The translations under genes were made by a program, and so were the position numbers. Below, one piece after another: positions 9,490-21,317 of a stretch of 64,000 bases of DNA (the first letter of the stretch is position 1; each line of letters starts with the position of its first letter). The stretch comes from Nitrospira sp. MA-1 (lineage in GTDB: Bacteria; Nitrospirota; Nitrospiria; Nitrospirales; UBA8639). The notes beneath the pieces are model-generated. The model was not told the DNA's origin. It was given only the letters and a program-made list of their open reading frames with translations, and ran no database searches. The stretch lies in the NCBI GenBank assembly GCA_032139905.1, contig JAQJDB010000006.1:310001-374000 (forward strand). Reading direction: 5' to 3'.

Positions 9490-9842
9490 CCGACGTCCCT
9501 CATGTGGTCGTAGCGGAAAACAGTGAGGCTAAAAAATCGCTGGTTTAATTGCACGAATACGACGGAAGGCACATGAATGGGAAGTGGCAAACACGAAGGA
9601 ATCTCCCGGTCTTAAGAATCTCCTGCCCTTTGCAGGAGTAGAATTCCCGGGATGATCACTCAAAACCTGCCGGTAATAAAACGAATCACAGAATCAACGA
9701 ACGACGGGATGTGTGGGCACGTTCAGAATGATGAAGAGGGCGTGCCTAAAAAAATCAATACATTTCCGCTTTACACGAAGCCAAACATTCAGGGTTGTAC
9801 TCACATTTCACTAACCCTGAATTTGTTGATTGTATGAGACAT
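9490..9842. other. Intergenic gap before the first structured repeat
   Basis: No believable gene is present. A 7-bp hairpin (CTCCTGC / GCAGGAG, 9620-9638) without a T-tract sits inside wider inverted CCCGG/CCGGG sequence. It may end the SLOG-like transcript. Confidence 0.4.
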
Positions 9843-10030
9843 GCCGGGTTTCGGCCCGGCAGCCGAGCCACTTTTCTTTCGGGAAAAGTGGCCAAAACCA
9901 TTGACGCCCCGTCTGGCCTTTGGAGAGCGAACGGACGCCAGTCTTAAGAGGGCGGTCCAACTCGCAGGGCTCAAACAAGGCCCGCCAACGAATGAGAGCG
10001 TCCCTCCCTTGGGCCATCCGGCAGGCGTCG
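9843..10030 (+). repeat. Structured dispersed repeat, copy 1
   Basis: First of four copies of a ~188-bp element. It opens with a GCCGGG/CCCGGC hairpin, then a stem CCACTTTTC / GAAAAGTGG around a TTTCGG loop, then AACCATTGACGCC. It ends in GGCAGGCGTCGG, whose GGCGTC can pair back with the GACGCC. The other copies are at 15779-15966 (minus), 18296-18486 and 19269-19455. Confidence 0.85.
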
Positions 10031-10247
10031 GTCAGCAACAAAAGCCCCGCCAAGTGTGTGATACCAATAGACCAAGGTCTGACAACATTGTCATCCTAAG
10101 TGGAACGAAGGATCTAGCATAGCAGTAAGATTTTCGACCTGGGCACCGATCCTCCGTTGTGGACTTTGCTTGAGGATGGGGTGTCCTTCCCATATCTTCC
10201 GCCAATGTCTGATTGGTAAAGTGTAGATCGTTCTCCCATAATGGATT

Positions 10248-11428: not shown

Positions 11429-12052
11429 ATGTCGATCGAACACGCGTGTTTCATCAGTTTCCCAAAAGGCAATGGTAAGGATAGCCAGTTCGCAAACCAC
11501 TTTTACAACGAGTTTACCGAACAGCTTGCAGCCATCGACAAAAATTTGTCGGTCTTCAAGTACGACCGCTGTGAACATCGTCGGAGAGGTGACGACTGGA
11601 CTCTCTGGATCCAACGCGAATTGTGCGATAGTGCGATGATGATTGCCGTTTGCGCTCCCAATTACTTTAATGGCAGTCAAGGCTGCATTAGCGAGTTTAA
11701 AGGTATGGAGGCACTGATCATCGAACGGACTAATGCCCTTGGTGAACTGGGATCCAACAACTGGCTTTTAGGATTGCGGCTGAAAGATAAAATACCGATG
11801 CCTGCATTAAATTCATATGATGTTCGAGATTTCCTCGATTGCTGTGCCTCACCGGAAAAGGTTAGACGCACGCATAAGTACCGAAAGATTGTGGAAGAGC
11901 TTGCCGATCGGGTCTACAACCACTGGTGTTGGCTGCATCGTGACGGTCGTAACATCAAACTTGTTGCTGCCAACATCTGCGCGAATTTTGTGATGCCAAG
12001 CACTCAACCTGCACCACCAGACCCGTTTCCTTATATGGGTGCCGTGCCATGA
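11429..12052 (+). CDS. TIR-domain protein, putative effector of a TIR/NTPase-TPR module
   Basis: 207 aa. It begins with CFISFPKGNGKDSQFANHF, a beta-A/alpha-A TIR-like start. A DDWTLWIQRELCDSAMMIAVCAPNYF stretch follows, split here only for reading, and then GCISEF, where Glu89 aligns with the catalytic Glu of NAD-cleaving TIR domains. The C-terminal third (residues ~130-207) is helical and not recognised. TIR effectors in bacteria hydrolyse NAD+ or make cyclic ADP-ribose-like signals when a sensor partner is triggered. The stop overlaps the start of the NTPase-TPR gene (ATGA), so the two are translationally coupled. NADase activity is inferred from one residue and fold; a scaffold-only TIR is possible. 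Confidence 0.75.
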   Translation: MSIEHACFISFPKGNGKDSQFANHFYNEFTEQLAAIDKNLSVFKYDRCEHRRRGDDWTLWIQRELCDSAMMIAVCAPNYFNGSQGCISEFKGMEALIIERTNALGELGSNNWLLGLRLKDKIPMPALNSYDVRDFLDCCASPEKVRRTHKYRKIVEELADRVYNHWCWLHRDGRNIKLVAANICANFVMPSTQPAPPDPFPYMGAVP

Positions 12053-15000
12053 ATATTTCTAGCCCGAATCCAAACTCGGGATTTGGTAGTCACTGGTTGG
12101 TGCGGACTGGCTTGGCCGACCGGGGCGATATCGTGACCTTCTATTCCTATAAAGGAGGGACTGGACGAACTATGGCTCTCGTGAATTGCGCAGGTCTAAT
12201 TGCTCAGAATTTACCTACAGACGCGAAGCCGTTACTACTTATCGACTTTGACCTTGAGGCACCGGGACTCCATCGCTATTTGGCGCCGTTTCTCCCTTCA
12301 CACGAAACCGGCACGCCCCAACAAGGCCTACTCGAACTCTTCGCTGCTTTGCTCTTGGAAATTGATCGAAATTTGTCAGATTTGCCGAAATCTGAGCTGA
12401 GCGAAATTCGTCGGCTTGATGATGAGACAACAGCTGAAATCATCGGTAATCTAGATTTGGCGCCATTTACCATCCAGACAACGGTCACCGGCTTGAACTT
12501 GATCATGGCAGGGCAATTCGACGACACATATGCCCAGCGGCTTTCGCACTTTAATTGGGAAGACTTGTTTGCAAAGGCACCAGGGGTGTTCCGCTGTTTG
12601 GCAGATCGGTTGGCACGTGAATACAGTTTTACATTCGTGGATTCGCGCACGGGCCTCAGCGATACCAGTGGCATTTGCACTATGCTGTTGCCGAACGTCC
12701 TGGTGGTGGTATTCACGCCGAACAATCAAAGTTTGACCGGCATTGAGCATCTTGTTCGAAAGGCCGTGGATTACCGTTCGAGCGCCTCGGACTCTCGCGA
12801 GTTGCGGGTCTATCCGCTTCCTTCTCGAGTAGATAATCAGGTAGAACACTTCAGGCATGTCTGGAGGATGGGAGATTCCCAAAATAAATTATTTGGAACA
12901 GTGAAAGGCTATCAACCCCTCTTCCAGGAAGTGCTTGAGTTCACTCTTGGGATGGACGGAAAAGAAGCCCCACACCGCCTAGCGGAATACTTCGATGTAA
13001 TACAAGTACCCCACAGCGCAGACTATTCGTATGGTGAACGCTTGTGTTTCCAAACCTCGGCACCAGGTGACAGCTTATCCCTCCGTGGAAGCTACGAGCA
13101 GTTTTTACCCTGGCTCGTGACTGGAGCACAGCCATGGGAGCGTCCGGGGGAACTACTCCTAGCCCAGCAGGCCTCCGAATGGCTTCATGATTTAGGGGTC
13201 GACACTATTCCGGAAAGCAACGAAGGATGGTTTGAATGGTTCAAGCGGCTTTCCGGAGTGATCGAAAATGCCGAGTACCCCGTGCTGATCCAGCAATCTC
13301 TGCTGTCACCTGACCTGCGTTTTGATACAAACTTAGTACAGGCGCTTGCTTATGCCTATAAGGGGGATTTTAGTTCTTCGAGTAACTGGCTAAAAAGAGC
13401 GATGTCTTCATACAGTGAAGATGTAGCCTCAACCATTCCCAACTCTGCACCAATGCAACTTCTGACTCTATGGATCGAAAATCTTTCCCCTGCTGATTTG
13501 AGAACATCCGAACGCAAGGCCTGGATCAAGGAGTTCGAGCAACTTGTATCTCGCTGGCAGGCAATTTGGAGCCAAAGACGGATCTGGCTTGTGACAATAA
13601 TTCAATTGGCAAATAAAGCTGGGTGGCAAGATATGGAGCAACTCGCCCTACAACAACTTGTCAGTTTAAATCAGGAAACGCTGGGGAACGAACACCCTGA
13701 TACCCTCTCGGCCATGGGAAATCTCGCAATTAGGCTGTCCCGCCAAGGACAATATGCCGAGGCTGGCGCGGTCCAACGGCAGGTCTTAGAGCTTAGTCAG
13801 CGCGTCCTTGGGGCGGAGGATCCCCGTACCCTTACCGCCATGAACAATCTCGCGCTGACACTGACCGACCGAGGCGAGTATGCCGAGGCAGTCGCGCTCC
13901 AACGACAGTCCTTGGAATTGAGCCAGGGCCTTCTCGGGCCGGAGCATTTCGACACCCTCACGGCCATGGGCAATCTCGCCATGATGCTGTCTCGCCAAGG
14001 CAAGTATGCCGAGGCAGTCGCGCTCCAACGGCAGGTTTTAGAGTCGAGCCAGGGCCTCCTTGGGGCGGAGGACCCCTTTGCTCTCACGGCCATGGGCAAT
14101 CTGGCGTTGACGCTGTCCGACCAAGGCGACTATGCCGAGGCTATCGCGCTTCAACGACAGGCCTTGGAGTTGAGCCAGAGCCTTCTCGGGCCGGAGCATT
14201 TCGACACCCTTACGGCCATAAACAATCTCGCCATGATGCTGTCTCGCCAAGGCGAGTATATCGAGGCTATCGCACTCCAACGGCAGGTCTTAGAGTCGAG
14301 CCAGGGCCTCCTCGGAGTGGAGCATCCCAATACCCTCACGGCCATGGGCAATCTGGCGTTGACGCTGTATCGCCAAGGCGAGTATATCGAGGCTATCACA
14401 CTCCAACGGCAGGTCTTTGAATTGTGCCAGCGCGTCCTCGGGCCTGAGCATCCCTTTACTCTCACAGCCATGGTTAACTTCGCGAAGACGCTGTCCGACC
14501 AAGGCGAGTATGCCGAGGCTATCACGCTCCAACGACAAGCCATAGAATTGAGCCAGCGTGTCCTCGGGCCTGAGCATCCCCGTACCCTCACAGCCATAAA
14601 CAATCTCGCGTTGACGCTGTCCGACCAAGGCGAGTATGCCGAGGCTATCGCGCTCCAACGACAGGTCTTGGAGCTGAGAAAGTCCGTCCTCGGGGACGGA
14701 CATCCCGACTCCCTCATCGCCATGAATAATCTCGCAATGACGCAGTTGGCGCAGAGTAAGTATGCTGAAGCTAGCGCGCTCCAACGGGAGGCCTTAGAAC
14801 TGAGTCAACGCGTCTTTGGGGCGGAGCATCCCAGTACCCTCACTGCCATGAGTAATCTCGCCAACATGCTTCAAGCACAAGGGGAGCTTTCTCCTGCACG
14901 AGAGCTTTATCAAAAGAGCTTGAATGGGTTTCGACGAGTTATGGGGGAAAACAACCGGATCACTTGGATTAATGGAATGGAACTAGCTGCCATCGACTTA

Positions 15001-15177
15001 GAAATGGACGATGCCTCCCATGCAGCTATCGTTCTTGATGGGTTTACCTCACCACAACTCACCATCGACAATGCACAATGGTTGGGATTGCGCCTGAAAA
15101 TCGCTGAAAAACTTGGTGCGAAAGAAGATATTGTTCGATTTCAACGCCGATCGCGCGAAATTCTCAGAAAAGCATAA
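12049..15177 (+). CDS. KGGTGRT-type ParA/MinD-like NTPase fused to a TPR array
   Basis: 1042 aa. Residues ~28-330 form a SIMIBI-class NTPase. The deviant P-loop is KGGTGRT (Lys35-Thr41), switch/Walker-B-like LLIDFDLEAPGLHRY follows, and DSRTGLSDTSG lies further on. This is the KGGVGR-variant MinD/ParA subgroup known from bacterial signalling and conflict loci. Residues ~340-570 are a helical linker. From residue ~532 to ~965 lie kinesin-light-chain-type TPRs of 42 aa (LQRQVLELSQ...LGPEHPDTLTAMNNLA...). Nine consecutive units are exactly 126 bp long and very alike. The N-terminal NTPase would act as a switch and the TPRs as a target-binding sensor for the overlapping TIR protein. No transmembrane segment is seen. 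Confidence 0.8.
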   Translation: MNISSPNPNSGFGSHWLVRTGLADRGDIVTFYSYKGGTGRTMALVNCAGLIAQNLPTDAKPLLLIDFDLEAPGLHRYLAPFLPSHETGTPQQGLLELFAALLLEIDRNLSDLPKSELSEIRRLDDETTAEIIGNLDLAPFTIQTTVTGLNLIMAGQFDDTYAQRLSHFNWEDLFAKAPGVFRCLADRLAREYSFTFVDSRTGLSDTSGICTMLLPNVLVVVFTPNNQSLTGIEHLVRKAVDYRSSASDSRELRVYPLPSRVDNQVEHFRHVWRMGDSQNKLFGTVKGYQPLFQEVLEFTLGMDGKEAPHRLAEYFDVIQVPHSADYSYGERLCFQTSAPGDSLSLRGSYEQFLPWLVTGAQPWERPGELLLAQQASEWLHDLGVDTIPESNEGWFEWFKRLSGVIENAEYPVLIQQSLLSPDLRFDTNLVQALAYAYKGDFSSSSNWLKRAMSSYSEDVASTIPNSAPMQLLTLWIENLSPADLRTSERKAWIKEFEQLVSRWQAIWSQRRIWLVTIIQLANKAGWQDMEQLALQQLVSLNQETLGNEHPDTLSAMGNLAIRLSRQGQYAEAGAVQRQVLELSQRVLGAEDPRTLTAMNNLALTLTDRGEYAEAVALQRQSLELSQGLLGPEHFDTLTAMGNLAMMLSRQGKYAEAVALQRQVLESSQGLLGAEDPFALTAMGNLALTLSDQGDYAEAIALQRQALELSQSLLGPEHFDTLTAINNLAMMLSRQGEYIEAIALQRQVLESSQGLLGVEHPNTLTAMGNLALTLYRQGEYIEAITLQRQVFELCQRVLGPEHPFTLTAMVNFAKTLSDQGEYAEAITLQRQAIELSQRVLGPEHPRTLTAINNLALTLSDQGEYAEAIALQRQVLELRKSVLGDGHPDSLIAMNNLAMTQLAQSKYAEASALQREALELSQRVFGAEHPSTLTAMSNLANMLQAQGELSPARELYQKSLNGFRRVMGENNRITWINGMELAAIDLEMDDASHAAIVLDGFTSPQLTIDNAQWLGLRLKIAEKLGAKEDIVRFQRRSREILRKA
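13765..14898 (+). repeat. Nine tandem 126-bp coding repeats (TPR units)
   Basis: The TPR region has exactly nine units of 126 bp (9 x 126 = 1134 bp) with no indels, flanked by more diverged half-conserved units. Units 2-3 resemble units 4-5 as a pair: LGPEHFDT...AMMLSRQG, then LESSQGLLG...NLALTL. This suggests duplication of a 252-bp block. Confidence 0.9.
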
Positions 15178-15216: not shown

Positions 15217-15398
15217 TTAACGAACAATAATCGGCAATTCAACATGGGAGGGCCGATTGGGTGTGAGCCAGACTTCCCATATGGGTGCCGGGCCATCCAG
15301 GTTTTGGAAATGATCGTAGCCGGCTCCCGCAGGGCGATGCGGATGAAATGACCCTGTTTGAATTGATCCGACAAGGTAAGGAACTCGAATAGAAGCTT
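15217..15398 (-). pseudogene. Decayed 3' end of a second CocE/NonD hydrolase gene
   Basis: The minus strand encodes YDHFQNLDGPAPIWEVW...RPSHVELPIIVR and stop. This closely matches the last ~30 residues of the intact hydrolase at 16174-18132 (NDHFQNLDGPAPTWEVW...RPSHIELPVVR). Upstream the match continues in another frame (SDQFKQGHFIRIAL), so one base has been lost near 15330. Only about 180 bp remain; homology stops near 15395. It appears to be the relic of a tandem paralogue broken by island rearrangement. Confidence 0.8.
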
Positions 15399-15476: not shown

Positions 15477-15770
15477 CTAGCGGTTTGCCGTGACGGCGAG
15501 GCGGAATCCCAATGCGTGGAGGAGTGCATCGAGGCTTTTAAGTTCAGGATTGCCCTGTTCGGAGAGGATCTTGTACAAGCTTTCGCGGTTGACCTTGGCC
15601 TTTTCGGCGAGTTGGGCCACACCGCCTTGACCTTCGGCCACATTCCTTAACCCCAGCAGGAACAATTCGGAATCGCCCTCCTCCAGCACCGCGTTCAAGT
15701 ATTCTTCGGCCTCACCGGCATCTTGCAGGCTTTCAATCAGGTCTGGTTGATCGGCATTGATCTTTTTCAC
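15477..15770 (-). CDS. HigA-like addiction-module antidote protein (orphan)
   Basis: 97 aa from the GTG at 15770, preceded by GGAGCAGAG. It matches the putative addiction-module antidote family: an N-terminal YLNAVLEEGDSELFLLGL segment, then a lambda-repressor-like HTH (AQLAEKAKVNRESLYKILSE) and NPELKSLDALLHALGFRLAV. The usual partner is a RelE-like killer protein encoded just upstream on the same strand. Here that position is occupied by a structured repeat, and no toxin is seen on either side. The frame stays open upstream through the repeat to 15971, so a longer product with a repeat-encoded N-terminus is conceivable, but the GTG start fits the family length. Confidence 0.75.
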   Translation of the reverse strand: MKKINADQPDLIESLQDAGEAEEYLNAVLEEGDSELFLLGLRNVAEGQGGVAQLAEKAKVNRESLYKILSEQGNPELKSLDALLHALGFRLAVTANR

Positions 15771-15778
15771 CTCTGCTC

Positions 15779-15966
15779 CGACGCCTGCCGTCTGGCCCAA
15801 GGAAGGGACGCTCTCCCCAGTGGGCGGGCCTTGTTTGAGCCCTGCGAGTTGGACCGCCCTCTTAAGACTGGCGTCCACTCGCTCTCCTAAGGCCAGACGG
15901 GGCGTCAATGGTTTTGGGCCCTTTTGCCGAAACAAAAGGGCCTCGCCTGCCGGGGCGAAACCCGGC
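15779..15966 (-). repeat. Structured dispersed repeat, copy 2
   Basis: Reverse-oriented copy. The second stem is GGCCCTTTTG / CAAAAGGGCC around TTTCGG, which differs from copy 1 by paired substitutions. It abuts the antitoxin start and supplies its upstream region. Confidence 0.85.
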
Positions 15967-16173
15967 AACACAGAACATCACGAGGACATGAGAGTGCGTA
16001 CACACCGTGAATGTGTGCACCCGCCAACACAATTTACGGGCAACACCCAAGAGGGATTCTCGACGATTTAAAACGCGAATGCGAGTTTGGCTGGGCTCAG
16101 ATCTTTCGTTTCACTCAAGATGACAACTTTTCTCGATTACACTTTTCCAACAGCCTGTTAGGGTTGGGAATTT

Positions 16174-18132
16174 TCAACGAACCACCGGCAGTTCAATGTG
16201 TGAGGGTCGATCGGGTGTGTGCCAGACTTCCCATGTGGGTGCCGGTCCATCCAGGTTTTGGAAATGATCGTTGTCGGCTCCTGCTAGGGCGATGCGAATG
16301 CGGTGCCCTTTGTTGAATTGATAGGACGTGGGAAGTAACTCGACCAGCAGTGGCGCTACTTCACCTGGAATGAGTGGAGCGGCATCGGCACGGCGAAATG
16401 TGTGAACGGGAAGTGGACCTGCGGAGGTGAAGATGGTGTCGCTTGGGTGCCATCGTCGATGGATGGCGCGCAACTCGCCTTCGGTGACGTAGTGCACGTC
16501 CCCTTCTGGTGTGACATCTTCCAGATAGACAAAGAGGTTTGTGTCTTGGGTGGTGGCAGAGAGGTAGACGGTAGCTACGGGATGCCCTGTGACTTCGAGG
16601 GCCTCTGAAAGGGGCTCAGACGTATAGAGCAACAAATCTTGATCTCGTTCCTTCCGATCGGGGTAGGGATTGTTCAGAGAAATACCCACCAGAGTGTTCC
16701 ACCGGGAATGCTTGCCGGTTCCCGTGGTGAGATCCACCTGGTATCGATCGGGATTGTTTGCTGCTGGTGGAGCATTCATCGAGAGTCCGCCTTCTTGTTG
16801 GAAATACATTGACGTCGGAGTGGACTCAGGCGGCCAGCGAGTCGATGTTTTCCATTGTTCTTCGCCCATGGTGTAGTAGCGGATCGGTGGATCATGCGGG
16901 TGGCCGGTGTCCACGTTTTTCAGATGGACATCGAAAAATTTCAGCAGTTCGGCCGCATGATCGAATGGCGCGGGTCCCAGCGCGTAGGGACTGATCCGGC
17001 GTTTGCCTCCGTGGTCCCATGGCCCGACTATGAGCCGGTGGGACGGTTGTTGGTGGTGGAGGTACCGTTTGATGGCGGCCAGTTGATATCCCCCGTCGAA
17101 CCATCCGCTGTAGCTGTAGATGGCTGCGCCTGATTTGGCAATGTCGTCGGCATAGGTTTGCGTGCTGAGCGCGTCGATGTTGGCGGCCTGTCCCGATGGT
17201 GGAGGGTCATCTCGAAAGACAATTTCCGAGGCTTCCCGGTATGGACTCCAATTGGTCTCGTGGTCCTGCAGGGCGAGTGATAGGAGGTCAAGGTTTTTAT
17301 CGCCATCCACCGGTCGTACTCCACGAACAAAGAGATTCGCGATGACGCCACCGTGGGGTAGGCGATTGTGGTCAAGACGATGAGTAATCGCACTCCAGGT
17401 TTTGGTAAACCAGTTGAGGTGGATGCCACCTGGAAAGATAATTTCGGAATAGAGATCGAAGCCTGAGTACATCGGGGCAATCGCTTTGACGGCCGGATGC
17501 TGATTGATGAGTAACATTTCAGCGGTCCCGCCACTGTAGGAAATACCCATGGCCCCGACCTTTCCGTTCGACCAGGGTTGGGCGATGATCCAGTCCACAA
17601 TTTCTGCGCCGTCTTTGATTTCCTCAGGGGAATAGGCGATCGGTCTATTCCCGAATGACGCCCCGGACCCACGAACATCTACATCGACCCACGCATAGCC
17701 CTGTTGAAGGAATCGTTTGGCATAAGACCCGATGAGCCCCCGTGGACCGTCATCTTTGAAGGCGGAGACCAGCCATCGATATTCGATTGCCCGCCAATAC
17801 CGGGTTTGGTGTAAGAGGGTAGGAATGGTGTGCCCTGACTTCAGGTCGGCGGGGAGATAGACATCCACCGCAAGCTTGACCCCGTCCCGCATCGTGAGAT
17901 ACTGCGAGGTACGGTGAAATGTCCCGCCAGGTTCCCCAACGTTTATAGGTGAAGATAGCGGGCTGGCTGCCGCCGGGTCAGAGTGCTCTACAGTATTTGG
18001 CGCACATCCTGAAAAGACAGGCAGTGCCAGCCCGAGAAGTATGAGAAAAGCCCATAAGCGGAAAAGTCCCGGGGTGGGGAGAGAGGAGAAACGGCTGGCA
18101 GATCGGAATCGGAGATGGGTTCTTCTGAACAT
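16174..18132 (-). CDS. CocE/NonD family hydrolase, lipoprotein
   Basis: 652 aa from the ATG at 18132; a TTG at 18192 is in frame. A basic N-terminus and hydrophobic stretch lead to a lipobox (VFSGC). The alpha/beta-hydrolase domain carries the nucleophile in GISYSGG, the acid in YSGWFDGG and the His in GPWDHGG. The C-terminal X-Pro dipeptidyl-peptidase jelly-roll domain ends with NLDGPAPTWEVW. Members include cocaine esterase, glutaryl-7-ACA acylases and X-prolyl aminopeptidases, so the substrate (ester or amide) cannot be fixed. The lipid anchor places it at the envelope. A 3' remnant of a paralogue lies 0.8 kb downstream. Confidence 0.88.
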   Translation of the reverse strand: MFRRTHLRFRSASRFSSLPTPGLFRLWAFLILLGLALPVFSGCAPNTVEHSDPAAASPLSSPINVGEPGGTFHRTSQYLTMRDGVKLAVDVYLPADLKSGHTIPTLLHQTRYWRAIEYRWLVSAFKDDGPRGLIGSYAKRFLQQGYAWVDVDVRGSGASFGNRPIAYSPEEIKDGAEIVDWIIAQPWSNGKVGAMGISYSGGTAEMLLINQHPAVKAIAPMYSGFDLYSEIIFPGGIHLNWFTKTWSAITHRLDHNRLPHGGVIANLFVRGVRPVDGDKNLDLLSLALQDHETNWSPYREASEIVFRDDPPPSGQAANIDALSTQTYADDIAKSGAAIYSYSGWFDGGYQLAAIKRYLHHQQPSHRLIVGPWDHGGKRRISPYALGPAPFDHAAELLKFFDVHLKNVDTGHPHDPPIRYYTMGEEQWKTSTRWPPESTPTSMYFQQEGGLSMNAPPAANNPDRYQVDLTTGTGKHSRWNTLVGISLNNPYPDRKERDQDLLLYTSEPLSEALEVTGHPVATVYLSATTQDTNLFVYLEDVTPEGDVHYVTEGELRAIHRRWHPSDTIFTSAGPLPVHTFRRADAAPLIPGEVAPLLVELLPTSYQFNKGHRIRIALAGADNDHFQNLDGPAPTWEVWHTPDRPSHIELPVVR

Positions 18133-18295
18133 ATGGAGTGGACGAGTATTGGTTCTGGTCTTAGAGCTTGACGGCTTGTATCTGAGATCCAACTTGGAGT
18201 TTACCAGTAAAAACGCGTCGTGAGGAGAAGGCCTCGTGTTAGTTTTTCCTCGTGTTAGTTTTTACAACTCAGGTGTGAATGTGATTTTCCGTGTT

Positions 18296-18486
18296 GCCGG
18301 GTTTCGCCCCGGCAGGCGAGGCCCTTTTGTTTCGGCAAAAGGACCCAAAACCATTGACGCCCCGTCTGGCTTAATTCATAGAGAAAGAACGCCGACTATG
18401 GGAAGGGCGGTCCAATTCGCAGGGCTCACACAAGGCCCGCCGGGAGATAAGGGCGTCCCTCTTTGAGGGCCAGTCGGCAGGCGTCG
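18296..18486 (+). repeat. Structured dispersed repeat, copy 3
   Basis: Same architecture as copies 1, 2 and 4. The stem uses CCTTTTG / CAAAAGG around TTTCGG. The middle part is the most diverged of the four. Confidence 0.85.
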
Positions 18487-19157: not shown

Positions 19158-19268
19158 AATGCGCAGGGATAGCCTTAGGAGCGGAAGGAAATAAGGAAAA
19201 GGGAGGAGAGCAGTCTATAGAGTTATTCCCATAAGCTTCCGCATTGTTAGATCAAAAAAAACGAAATT

Positions 19269-19455
19269 TCCGGGTTTCGGCCCGGCAGCCGAAGTCCTTT
19301 TCTTTCGGGAAAAGGACTCAAAACCAGTGACGCCCGGCCCGGTCACATCAGATTGATCGGACGCAAGGCATAGGAGGGCGGACCAACTCGCAGGGCTCAA
19401 ACAAGGCCCGCCAGAGATGAGAGCGTCCGACCATAGGGCCGGGCAGCAGGCGTCG
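19269..19455 (+). repeat. Structured dispersed repeat, copy 4
   Basis: Same architecture. The stem is AGTCCTTTTC / GAAAAGGACT around TTTCGG, again changed pairwise relative to other copies. It lies between the YdjM-like and hipBA genes. Confidence 0.85.
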
Positions 19456-19720: not shown

Positions 19721-19737
19721 TCATGGTTAAGGAAGTG

Positions 19738-19992
19738 ATGATGACCGACCTCGCACGCAATCCAAAACAGATCGGCAACCTGATTCGCCGGACCCGCAAG
19801 AATCTCGGACTAAGCCAGAGTCAACTTGGCGAGAAGACCGGCCTGCGGCAGGAGACGATTTCCCTGATCGAGACGGGCAATCCGGCTGCGAAGCTGGAGA
19901 CGATTCTTGCGGTCCTGGCCGCCCTCGATCTGGAGTTCCGGATCGTGCCACGGTCGAAAGGAGGCTCCGCCGAGATCGAGGATATTTTCTGA
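19738..19992 (+). CDS. hipB: HipB-like antitoxin, XRE family
   Basis: 84 aa from the ATG at 19738, chosen because AAGGA lies 4 bases upstream; the earlier ATG at 19723 falls directly after the second operator-like repeat. Helix-turn-helix is RRTRKNLGLSQSQLGEKTGLRQETISLIE. The short tail (LDLEFRIVPR) contributes a beta strand to the dimer as in HipB. It represses its own operon and neutralises HipA. It overlaps hipA by one base (TGATG). Confidence 0.85.
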   Translation: MMTDLARNPKQIGNLIRRTRKNLGLSQSQLGEKTGLRQETISLIETGNPAAKLETILAVLAALDLEFRIVPRSKGGSAEIEDIF

Positions 19993-21317
19993 TGCCCCGT
20001 CCGCGCCGACCGCCGCTTCATGTGCTTCTGAATAACCGTCTTGTCGGTCAACTTCATAAGGCTGTGAGCGGTGCCATCGGTTTTCAGTATGATCACAGCT
20101 GGTTGGAATGGGAACATGCGCTCCCGATCTCTCTGTCCCTCCCTTTGCGGGAGGACGCATTTAGAGGAGAGCCCGTGGTTGCCGTGTTTGAAAACCTGTT
20201 GCCCGACTCGGACATGCTTCGCCGACGTGTGGCGGAAAAAGTGGGAGCTGCCGGGACGGATGCCTATAGCCTGCTTGCGGCCATTGGCCGCGACTGTGTC
20301 GGGGCTTTGCAGTTTGTGAGCGCCGATGATGTTGGCCACGAAAGTGGCGATGCCGCCGTCATGAGGGGTAATGCACTGAATGATGCCGCCATTGAAACAC
20401 TGCTCAACGGACTGGCTCAGGCTCCATTAGGTTTAACCCATGATGATGCATTCCGGATATCGATTGCCGGGGCACAGGAAAAGACGGCGCTGCTCCGTCA
20501 TAAAGGTCAATGGCACAAACCGCAGGGGACGACACCGACCACTCATATCTTTAAAAAGCCGATTGGCCGGTTACCGAACGGCCTCGATCTTTCGAACAGC
20601 GTCGAAAATGAATTTTACTGCCTTCAACTGGCTGCCGCCTTCGGGTTGCCGGTCGCACGGGCCGACATGTCCATGTTCGGGAGCACGCGCGCCCTGGTCA
20701 TTGAGCGGTTCGACCGGCTCTGGACGAAAGACAACCGTCTGCTGCGACTGCCGCAGGAGGATTGTTGCCAGGCCCTGTCGGTACCGCCCACCCGGAAATA
20801 TCAAAGTCACGGGGGGCCGGGAATGGTGCAGATTCTCAATCTGCTGAAGGGGAGTGATACCCCGGCCGGTGATCAGAAAATTGTGCTGAAGGCCCAAATC
20901 CTGTTCTGGATGATTGGCGCGACGGACGGGCATGCCAAGAATTTCAGTATCTTTCTCAGTCCCGGTGGCAGTTTTCACCTGACCCCGCTATATGACGTGC
21001 TGACCGCTCAGCCGAGTCTTGATGCGCACCAGATCGAACGCAAGCAGATGAAGCTGGCCATGTCGGTCGGTACGAGCTGTCATTATCGAATTGACGAAAT
21101 ACTCTGGCGGCATTTTATTCAAACCGGAGAAGCGGCAGGGCTCCCGAAAAACCTTGTACGCGAGGCGATCGAGGAAATGGCTGATACGGCTCCAAAGGCG
21201 ATTGAAACAATTGAAAGCGAATTGCCGGTGGAATTTCCCGCGGCCATTCACACATCAGTCAAAAATGCGATCACCGATCGTCTGAGCAAGCTGCCGGTGG
21301 GTAAGGCAAAGGGATAA
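19992..21317 (+). CDS. hipA: HipA family serine/threonine kinase toxin
   Basis: 441 aa, full length for HipA. HipA_N (residues ~10-110) is followed by the kinase part. The Gly-rich loop is SIAGAQEKTALL (residues 157-168), the catalytic motif is TDGHAKNF (Asp312, Asn317), and the metal-binding Asp335 lies in LTPLYDVLTA. All key residues are present, so the kinase should be active. Characterised HipA proteins phosphorylate glutamyl- or other tRNA synthetases and cause growth arrest or persistence. It is translationally coupled to hipB and forms the right-hand end of the accessory region. Confidence 0.92.
   Translation: MPRPRRPPLHVLLNNRLVGQLHKAVSGAIGFQYDHSWLEWEHALPISLSLPLREDAFRGEPVVAVFENLLPDSDMLRRRVAEKVGAAGTDAYSLLAAIGRDCVGALQFVSADDVGHESGDAAVMRGNALNDAAIETLLNGLAQAPLGLTHDDAFRISIAGAQEKTALLRHKGQWHKPQGTTPTTHIFKKPIGRLPNGLDLSNSVENEFYCLQLAAAFGLPVARADMSMFGSTRALVIERFDRLWTKDNRLLRLPQEDCCQALSVPPTRKYQSHGGPGMVQILNLLKGSDTPAGDQKIVLKAQILFWMIGATDGHAKNFSIFLSPGGSFHLTPLYDVLTAQPSLDAHQIERKQMKLAMSVGTSCHYRIDEILWRHFIQTGEAAGLPKNLVREAIEEMADTAPKAIETIESELPVEFPAAIHTSVKNAITDRLSKLPVGKAKG

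Follow-up and report, generated by a model that had tools for sequence, protein, structure and literature searches.

The locus and its genome

The window analysed here is a stretch of 64,000 nucleotides from Nitrospira sp. MA-1, whose genome of 4.76 Mb lies in 7 contigs and is 99.98% complete. On the minus strand, the window carries an orphan antitoxin gene of 97 codons (15477-15770), reading from a GTG at 15770 to a stop codon at 15477-15479. This gene forms the last part of a longer open frame of 164 codons (15477-15971, minus strand, also with a GTG start), and residues 77-160 of the longer frame matched TIGR02684 (dnstrm_HI1420) at 65.8 bits in a profile search. The score is above the family cut-off of 53.7, which places the predicted product in the HI1420-type antitoxin family. 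The 97-residue form passed the same cut-off with 67.8 bits, and the antitoxin scored 20.6 bits against the generic HTH_3 family, just below its cut-off of 23. All 97 residues are homologous to the antitoxins of relatives, which start with ATG, and the nearest relatives belong to Nitrospira and Nitrospirales. A search of solved structures with the antitoxin returned zero matches.

Directly upstream lies not a TIGR02683 toxin gene but a 200-bp copy of an interspersed structured repeat (15771-15970, minus strand), which takes the place of the toxin gene and of a palindrome seen in relatives and adjoins the antitoxin gene on that strand without any gap. The same profile search of the whole genome found TIGR02684 twice, in the window gene and in a paralogue on contig C7, and TIGR02683 not at all. 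No toxin fragment was found beside the antitoxin within the window. An earlier note on this DNA had described an antidote gene without a toxin partner, and these searches bear it out. A terminator-like hairpin lies at 15963-15938 (minus strand); chance can account for it, as 2 were found and 1.3 expected.

Upstream of the repeat, on the same strand, is a gene for a CocE/NonD-family hydrolase (16174-18192, minus strand; TIGR00976, 431.7 bits), and downstream of the antitoxin blastn revealed a diverged second copy of the 3' end of this gene (15233-15388, minus strand), a direct repeat with 88% identity over 99 bp. This second copy resembles what we take to be a gene-end copy left by an integrating element, or else a relic of a tandem gene copy. 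Three further copies of the structured repeat lie on the plus strand: one at 9842-10031 (90% identical to the copy beside the antitoxin), one upstream of the CocE gene and in opposite orientation at 18281-18482 (first matched as 18281-18370 with 18404-18460), and one at 19261-19451 (first matched as 19267-19412).

Within 11429-15177, a weak TIR-domain gene (24.3 bits, cut-off 28) is followed by a KGGVGR-type ATPase gene with tetratricopeptide repeats (FxSxx_TPR, 338 bits), in which 126-bp units are repeated in tandem; together the two look like a conflict or defence pair. A pair of HipB-like and HipA-like genes (19723-21317) adjoins repeat copies. The paralogous orphan antitoxin on contig C7 (L088:3617-4347) is adjoined by a small gene pair, presumably of the DUF433/DUF5615 kind, and has a reverse-transcriptase-like gene nearby, recognised by eye. 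Similar small-gene neighbours occur at two other loci, L061 and L050, from both of which the toxin is gone.

The intact module in relatives

Nineteen distinct close antitoxin loci were counted across the collections, the window and its paralogue among them, with sequences identical in two collections counted once (L024/L064, L026/L052, L027/L057, L028/L060 and L049/L061), and were sorted by eye into states. A toxin frame is present at eight of them. It is open and directly upstream of the antitoxin at six (L053, L056, L058, L059, L062 and L063) and carries a stop at two, near the end in L054 and in the middle in L057; the remaining 11 loci have no full toxin. All three toxins that were scanned pass TIGR02683, with 128-131 bits. 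The comparison with close relatives that the earlier note proposed thus uncovered uninterrupted toxin-antitoxin pairs, and its placement of the repeat agrees with them, since the toxin of relatives occupies the position held by the repeat in the window. At L057 (3672-4001) and L054 (3657-4001), a toxin frame interrupted by one in-frame stop sits beside an open antitoxin, and these loci are early stages of the same toxin decay.

In the pairs, the end of the toxin gene overlaps the start of the antitoxin gene (ATGA), and an AGGAGG-like sequence lies within the last toxin codons, where we assume it acts as the ribosome-binding site of the antitoxin. The palindrome GTAGCTTATAAGCTAC (at most 2 mismatches) was found 354-357 bp before the antitoxin at all eight toxin-bearing loci and at one of the 11 toxin-less loci (L065, at 37 bp upstream). 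It is absent from the MA-1 genome, window included, at up to 2 mismatches, and is presumably the operator of the module. The locus corresponds to the HI1419/HI1420 type II module (TIGR02683/TIGR02684) in its antitoxin, which exceeds the family cut-off, and in the toxin that its relatives carry directly upstream with an ATGA overlap; it differs in having neither toxin, palindrome nor native ribosome-binding site.

Orphan antitoxins of Klebsiella have been defined as proteins of 50-150 amino acids with at least 75% identity over 50 amino acids to a paired antitoxin, the toxin being absent (PMC7192599). By this definition the window gene is an orphan: its product has 97 amino acids, its identity to the antitoxins of L053, L058 and L059, all with open toxins, is 79-84% (75-84% to the toxin-paired antitoxins of sister species in general), and a toxin is absent. 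Among 20 genomes of the genus, there were 10 TIGR02683 matches in eight genomes and 21 TIGR02684 matches in 12. By coordinates, 8 of these 21 antitoxins adjoin a toxin match; the other 13, which include fragments, have none beside them. One candidate for a solitary toxin, in genome G046 (L093), was rejected by eye, as a small gene after the toxin could be its antitoxin.

A genus-wide structured repeat

The repeat is a structured, genus-wide family with covariation in five helices, in agreement with the word "structured" in the earlier note. The five-helix structure fits 49 aligned copies, with 91.6% of cells pairing; the alignment took in 49 of 51 copies, those of L011 and L019, which have an insertion of about 20 nt, being left out. 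Changes on both sides were found in 16 of the 34 pairs of this hand-set structure, a level reached by none of 500 shuffles and by no slid version. The MA-1 genome gave 104 matches to the 164-codon frame, nearly all within its repeat half and far above chance, and copies are dense on contig C3. The repeat was found in all 20 genus genomes, with at least 7-51 matches each, and in 40 of 48 family genomes, representing 6 of 10 genera. It had no match in Rfam, at the gathering threshold or at E up to 1, and in a literature search, by title and abstract, no paper dealt with this repeat or with TIGR02683/84 in Nitrospira. A reading of the repeat as part of an integron was rejected: between the C3 copies (L087) lie ordinary island genes, by eye restriction-modification, VapC-like and HicB-like, and no cassette array. 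The repeat family is a matter separate from the toxin-antitoxin question and is worth a study of its own.

The junction within the start codon

The junction between repeat and antitoxin was placed by eye, comparing printed repeat copies (L025, L014 and L006) with modules that retain a toxin frame (L057 and L058). In the window the repeat ends in ...GGAGCAGAGG and is followed by TGAAAAAG of the antitoxin. Elsewhere the repeat runs on as GGAGCGGAGGAGACG (L025) or GGAACAGAGGAGGAG (L014), and intact modules read GGAGGCCATGAAAAAG at the antitoxin start. The change-over therefore falls inside the start codon (15768-15770, minus strand): the first base, the G at 15770, matches the repeat, and the following TG matches the antitoxin's ATG, which became GTG. 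The same junction, ...GGCAGGCG(T/C)CGGAGCAGAG|GTGAAAAAGATCAA, is present in a second species (L052). A Shine-Dalgarno-like GGAG at 15776-15779, itself derived from the repeat, lies five bases ahead of the GTG. The GTG at 15770 may well be the start in use, and the protein likely begins there, with 97 amino acids, rather than at 15971.

Selection on the antitoxin

Codon models were applied to 16 of the 19 loci over 96 codons, with the shortened or shifted L029, L050 and L065 excluded, stop codons treated as missing data and the start codon omitted. A single dN/dS for the whole tree was 0.078, and tips with an open toxin had values from 0 to 0.24; the value for L063 is uninformative because this locus served as root. 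The window tip, on the basis of few substitutions in 96 codons, had a dN/dS of 1.71 (p = 9.1e-6 against the background, p = 0.55 against 1). Its paralogue in the same genome (L002) had 0.74 (p = 9.3e-9 and 0.48, respectively), and the visibly broken L060 had 0.57 (p = 6.8e-4 and 0.39). Values below 1 were obtained for L052, which shares the window's junction (0.12, p = 0.012 against 1), for L064 (0.12, p = 0.0073), for L061 (0.06, p = 1.7e-4) and for L054 (0.00, p = 0.0021). L025 had 0.28 (p = 0.094), and the branches of the orphan L055 (0.54, p = 0.66) and the stop-bearing L057 (0.55, p = 0.75) are too short to tell. The window antitoxin thus appears to be drifting, at a dN/dS far above the background. 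From these values the orphans do not all seem dead: the antitoxins of L052 and L064 look constrained, while the window copy looks dead.

These values bear directly on the proposal that the orphan is a maintained anti-addiction gene, which would neutralise HI1419-type toxins arriving from mobile elements or sister species. Possible targets exist, as toxins are present in sister species, paired with antitoxins 75-84% identical to that of the window, and toxin relatives were found in 791 of 72,556 plasmid records and 13 of 50,697 phage records, and the constraint suggested for L052 and L064 would fit such a role. However, 777 of the 791 plasmid relatives have less than 60% identity and all of them stay below 80%, no promoter-like site was found near the antitoxin (0.2 expected), and two of the six loci with a repeat have visibly broken antitoxins. 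Selection on the gene in the absence of its toxin, which this proposal requires, is indicated in L052 and L064 but not in the window, and neither the window branch nor that of its paralogue was shown to be below 1. We consider the proposal unlikely for MA-1, and the persistent anti-addiction factor suggested in the earlier note is unsupported in this organism because the antitoxin evolves like unconstrained sequence.

Toxin loss and its break points

The repeat was found no more than about 500 bp upstream of the antitoxin at six of the 19 loci (window, L052, L060, L029, L025 and L064), each of them without a full toxin, whereas none of the eight toxin-bearing loci has a repeat in the fetched flank. 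The association (6/11 versus 0/8) has a Fisher p of 0.018, although the six loci are not independent because they represent one common neighbourhood. The order of CocE gene, spacer and repeat is common to the window, L052, L060, L029 and L025; the arrangement at L064 is different, with a CocE tail and a second repeat downstream. The second copy of the CocE 3' end also occurs in L025, L060, L029 and L064 but not in L052. A CocE match was present in 13 of the genus genomes. In five, the whole antitoxin or a portion of it adjoins the gene, and in six the fetched flank downstream lacks antitoxin and repeat alike. One more (G034) has the repeat in opposite orientation and no antitoxin, and in the last (G047) the sequence ends inside the CocE gene.

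On the toxin side, the loci with a repeat differ in where the break lies. In the window and L052 it falls at the antitoxin start codon and no toxin is kept. L060 retains the last ~19 toxin codons, and its antitoxin has lost the start codon and has a TAG at codon 8. In L025 and L064 the repeat has a longer tail, followed by ~190 bp of other DNA and then by the final ~10 toxin codons, and in L029 the loss reaches antitoxin codon ~46-49, so that the N-terminal half is missing. Break points that differ by species in this way look like deletions beside a pre-existing repeat. Since L060 has the longest toxin remnant of them, the simplest account would be that the repeat was already present when several distinct deletions took place. 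At five of the 11 toxin-less loci (L061, L055, L002, L050 and L065), the toxin was lost with no repeat at the site; the repeat is therefore one setting of a recurrent toxin loss and not its general cause.

It could instead be supposed that the toxin was displaced in a single transposition-like event by insertion of the repeat itself, in line with the insertion suggested in the earlier note. The repeat does exist in dozens of copies, and at six loci it stands at the expected place of the toxin with the statistical association given above. Nevertheless, those six loci are a single neighbourhood, their repeat side is constant and their toxin side variable, and in L025 and L064 the longer tail and the additional DNA separate the repeat from the toxin remnant. 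Toxin-less loci without the repeat, the outcome that had been named beforehand as speaking against insertion, were found five times. An insertion in one step is accordingly improbable.

Possible exchange between lineages

Between the window and L052, the CocE genes differ with a dS of 0.59-1.17 and the spacer is 81% identical, while the repeat is 92.5% and the antitoxin 92.1% identical (dS 0.18); downstream of the antitoxin the two are unrelated. Because this block is more alike than the CocE genes, recombination may have moved repeat and antitoxin together, and the L052 antitoxin was possibly exchanged between lineages. The repeat is better conserved than the spacer in other comparisons with the window as well (94 versus 80% in L025, 84.5 versus 75% in L060 and 84 versus 78.5% in L029), and it may therefore be under constraint or be converted. 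Trees were built from the flanks and from the antitoxin plus the DNA downstream of it; with support of 42-74 at key nodes, they did not single out a sister locus for the window. It would be a considerable step further to suppose that the repeat, by contributing a ribosome-binding site and the initial base of the GTG, has made the orphan a portable, operator-free antidote cassette, a block exchanged between species with the repeat as its crossover point, and we hold this to be quite improbable.

The fused frame

The 164-codon frame noted earlier does exist and is open through the repeat, with its first 67 codons within the repeat copy and its last 97 in the antitoxin, and it is open in L052 as well. 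It is probably not translated whole. Differences between the window and L052 at codon positions 1, 2 and 3 number 2, 10 and 3 in the repeat half and 7, 5 and 11 in the antitoxin half (p = 0.02 for the difference in pattern). Third positions are thus not favoured in the repeat half, where their share of 3/15 is lower than a third, but not significantly so (p = 0.41), and a coding role for this half finds no support in these comparisons. That the fused product of the earlier note exists as a protein whose N-terminus is extended by repeat sequence is very improbable, as the frame is likewise open in many unrelated repeat copies and the antitoxins of relatives start at the equivalent of codon 68.

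Probable decay of a module beside a resident repeat

The most probable reading is that the locus is a decaying HI1419/HI1420-type module, whose toxin was deleted beside a resident repeat and whose antitoxin is drifting. The sequences show the homology, the missing toxin and palindrome, the junction and the dN/dS values; the order of events, a deletion rather than a precise insertion, the use of the GTG at 15770 and an absence of function are inferred. The common structured repeat would have been there first, with the CocE gene on one side and the module on the other, and a deletion would then have run from the repeat tail to the first base of the antitoxin start codon, taking with it the toxin, the presumed operator palindrome and the old ribosome-binding site. 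Because it would have left an accidental but usable start, a GGAG from the repeat followed by a GTG of mixed origin, the antitoxin frame could have stayed readable; with no toxin to restrain, the antitoxin would drift in the window species. Against this reading stand the frame, which has remained open for 97 codons behind a passable start, the constraint that orphans of other species seem to be under (L052, despite its identical junction, and L064), the small number of substitutions behind the dN/dS, and the weak support of the trees together with the possible recombination of the block.

Similar situations have been described in other bacteria. For the orphan antitoxins of Klebsiella, which share with the window gene their size, their identity of over 75% to a paired antitoxin and the absent toxin, the published account gives remnant and anti-addiction as possible fates (PMC7192599); here, relatives that keep the partner, the site of the break and the lost constraint could be added, and the repeat supplies the new start region. 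The decay of ccdO157 in E. coli has been linked to REP sequences (Mine et al. 2009, via PMC4666352), and there too a module on the chromosome is in decay next to a structured repeat; the likeness is drawn from the title and a citing sentence, and module, repeat and bacterium are all different. The chromosomal CcdA of Erwinia chrysanthemi is reported as an anti-addiction gene whose neutralising activity was shown by experiment (PMC7354431). In both cases a chromosomally encoded antitoxin has been put forward as a defence against toxins entering the cell, whereas the window species has no sign of maintenance.

In conclusion, the locus is a genuine and well-resolved example, of a kind already known, of a toxin-antitoxin module that decays next to a repeat. 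Two features of it are neat: that the break lies within the start codon, and that the two species with this break differ in constraint. Within one toxin-antitoxin family, the stages of decay can be seen side by side in related species: the whole pair, the toxin with a stop, the toxin remnant, the toxin gone, the antitoxin drifting and the antitoxin broken. The stage at which the toxin is gone includes a constrained antitoxin, and whether orphan antitoxins are kept or left over becomes a question that can be tested from sequence alone.
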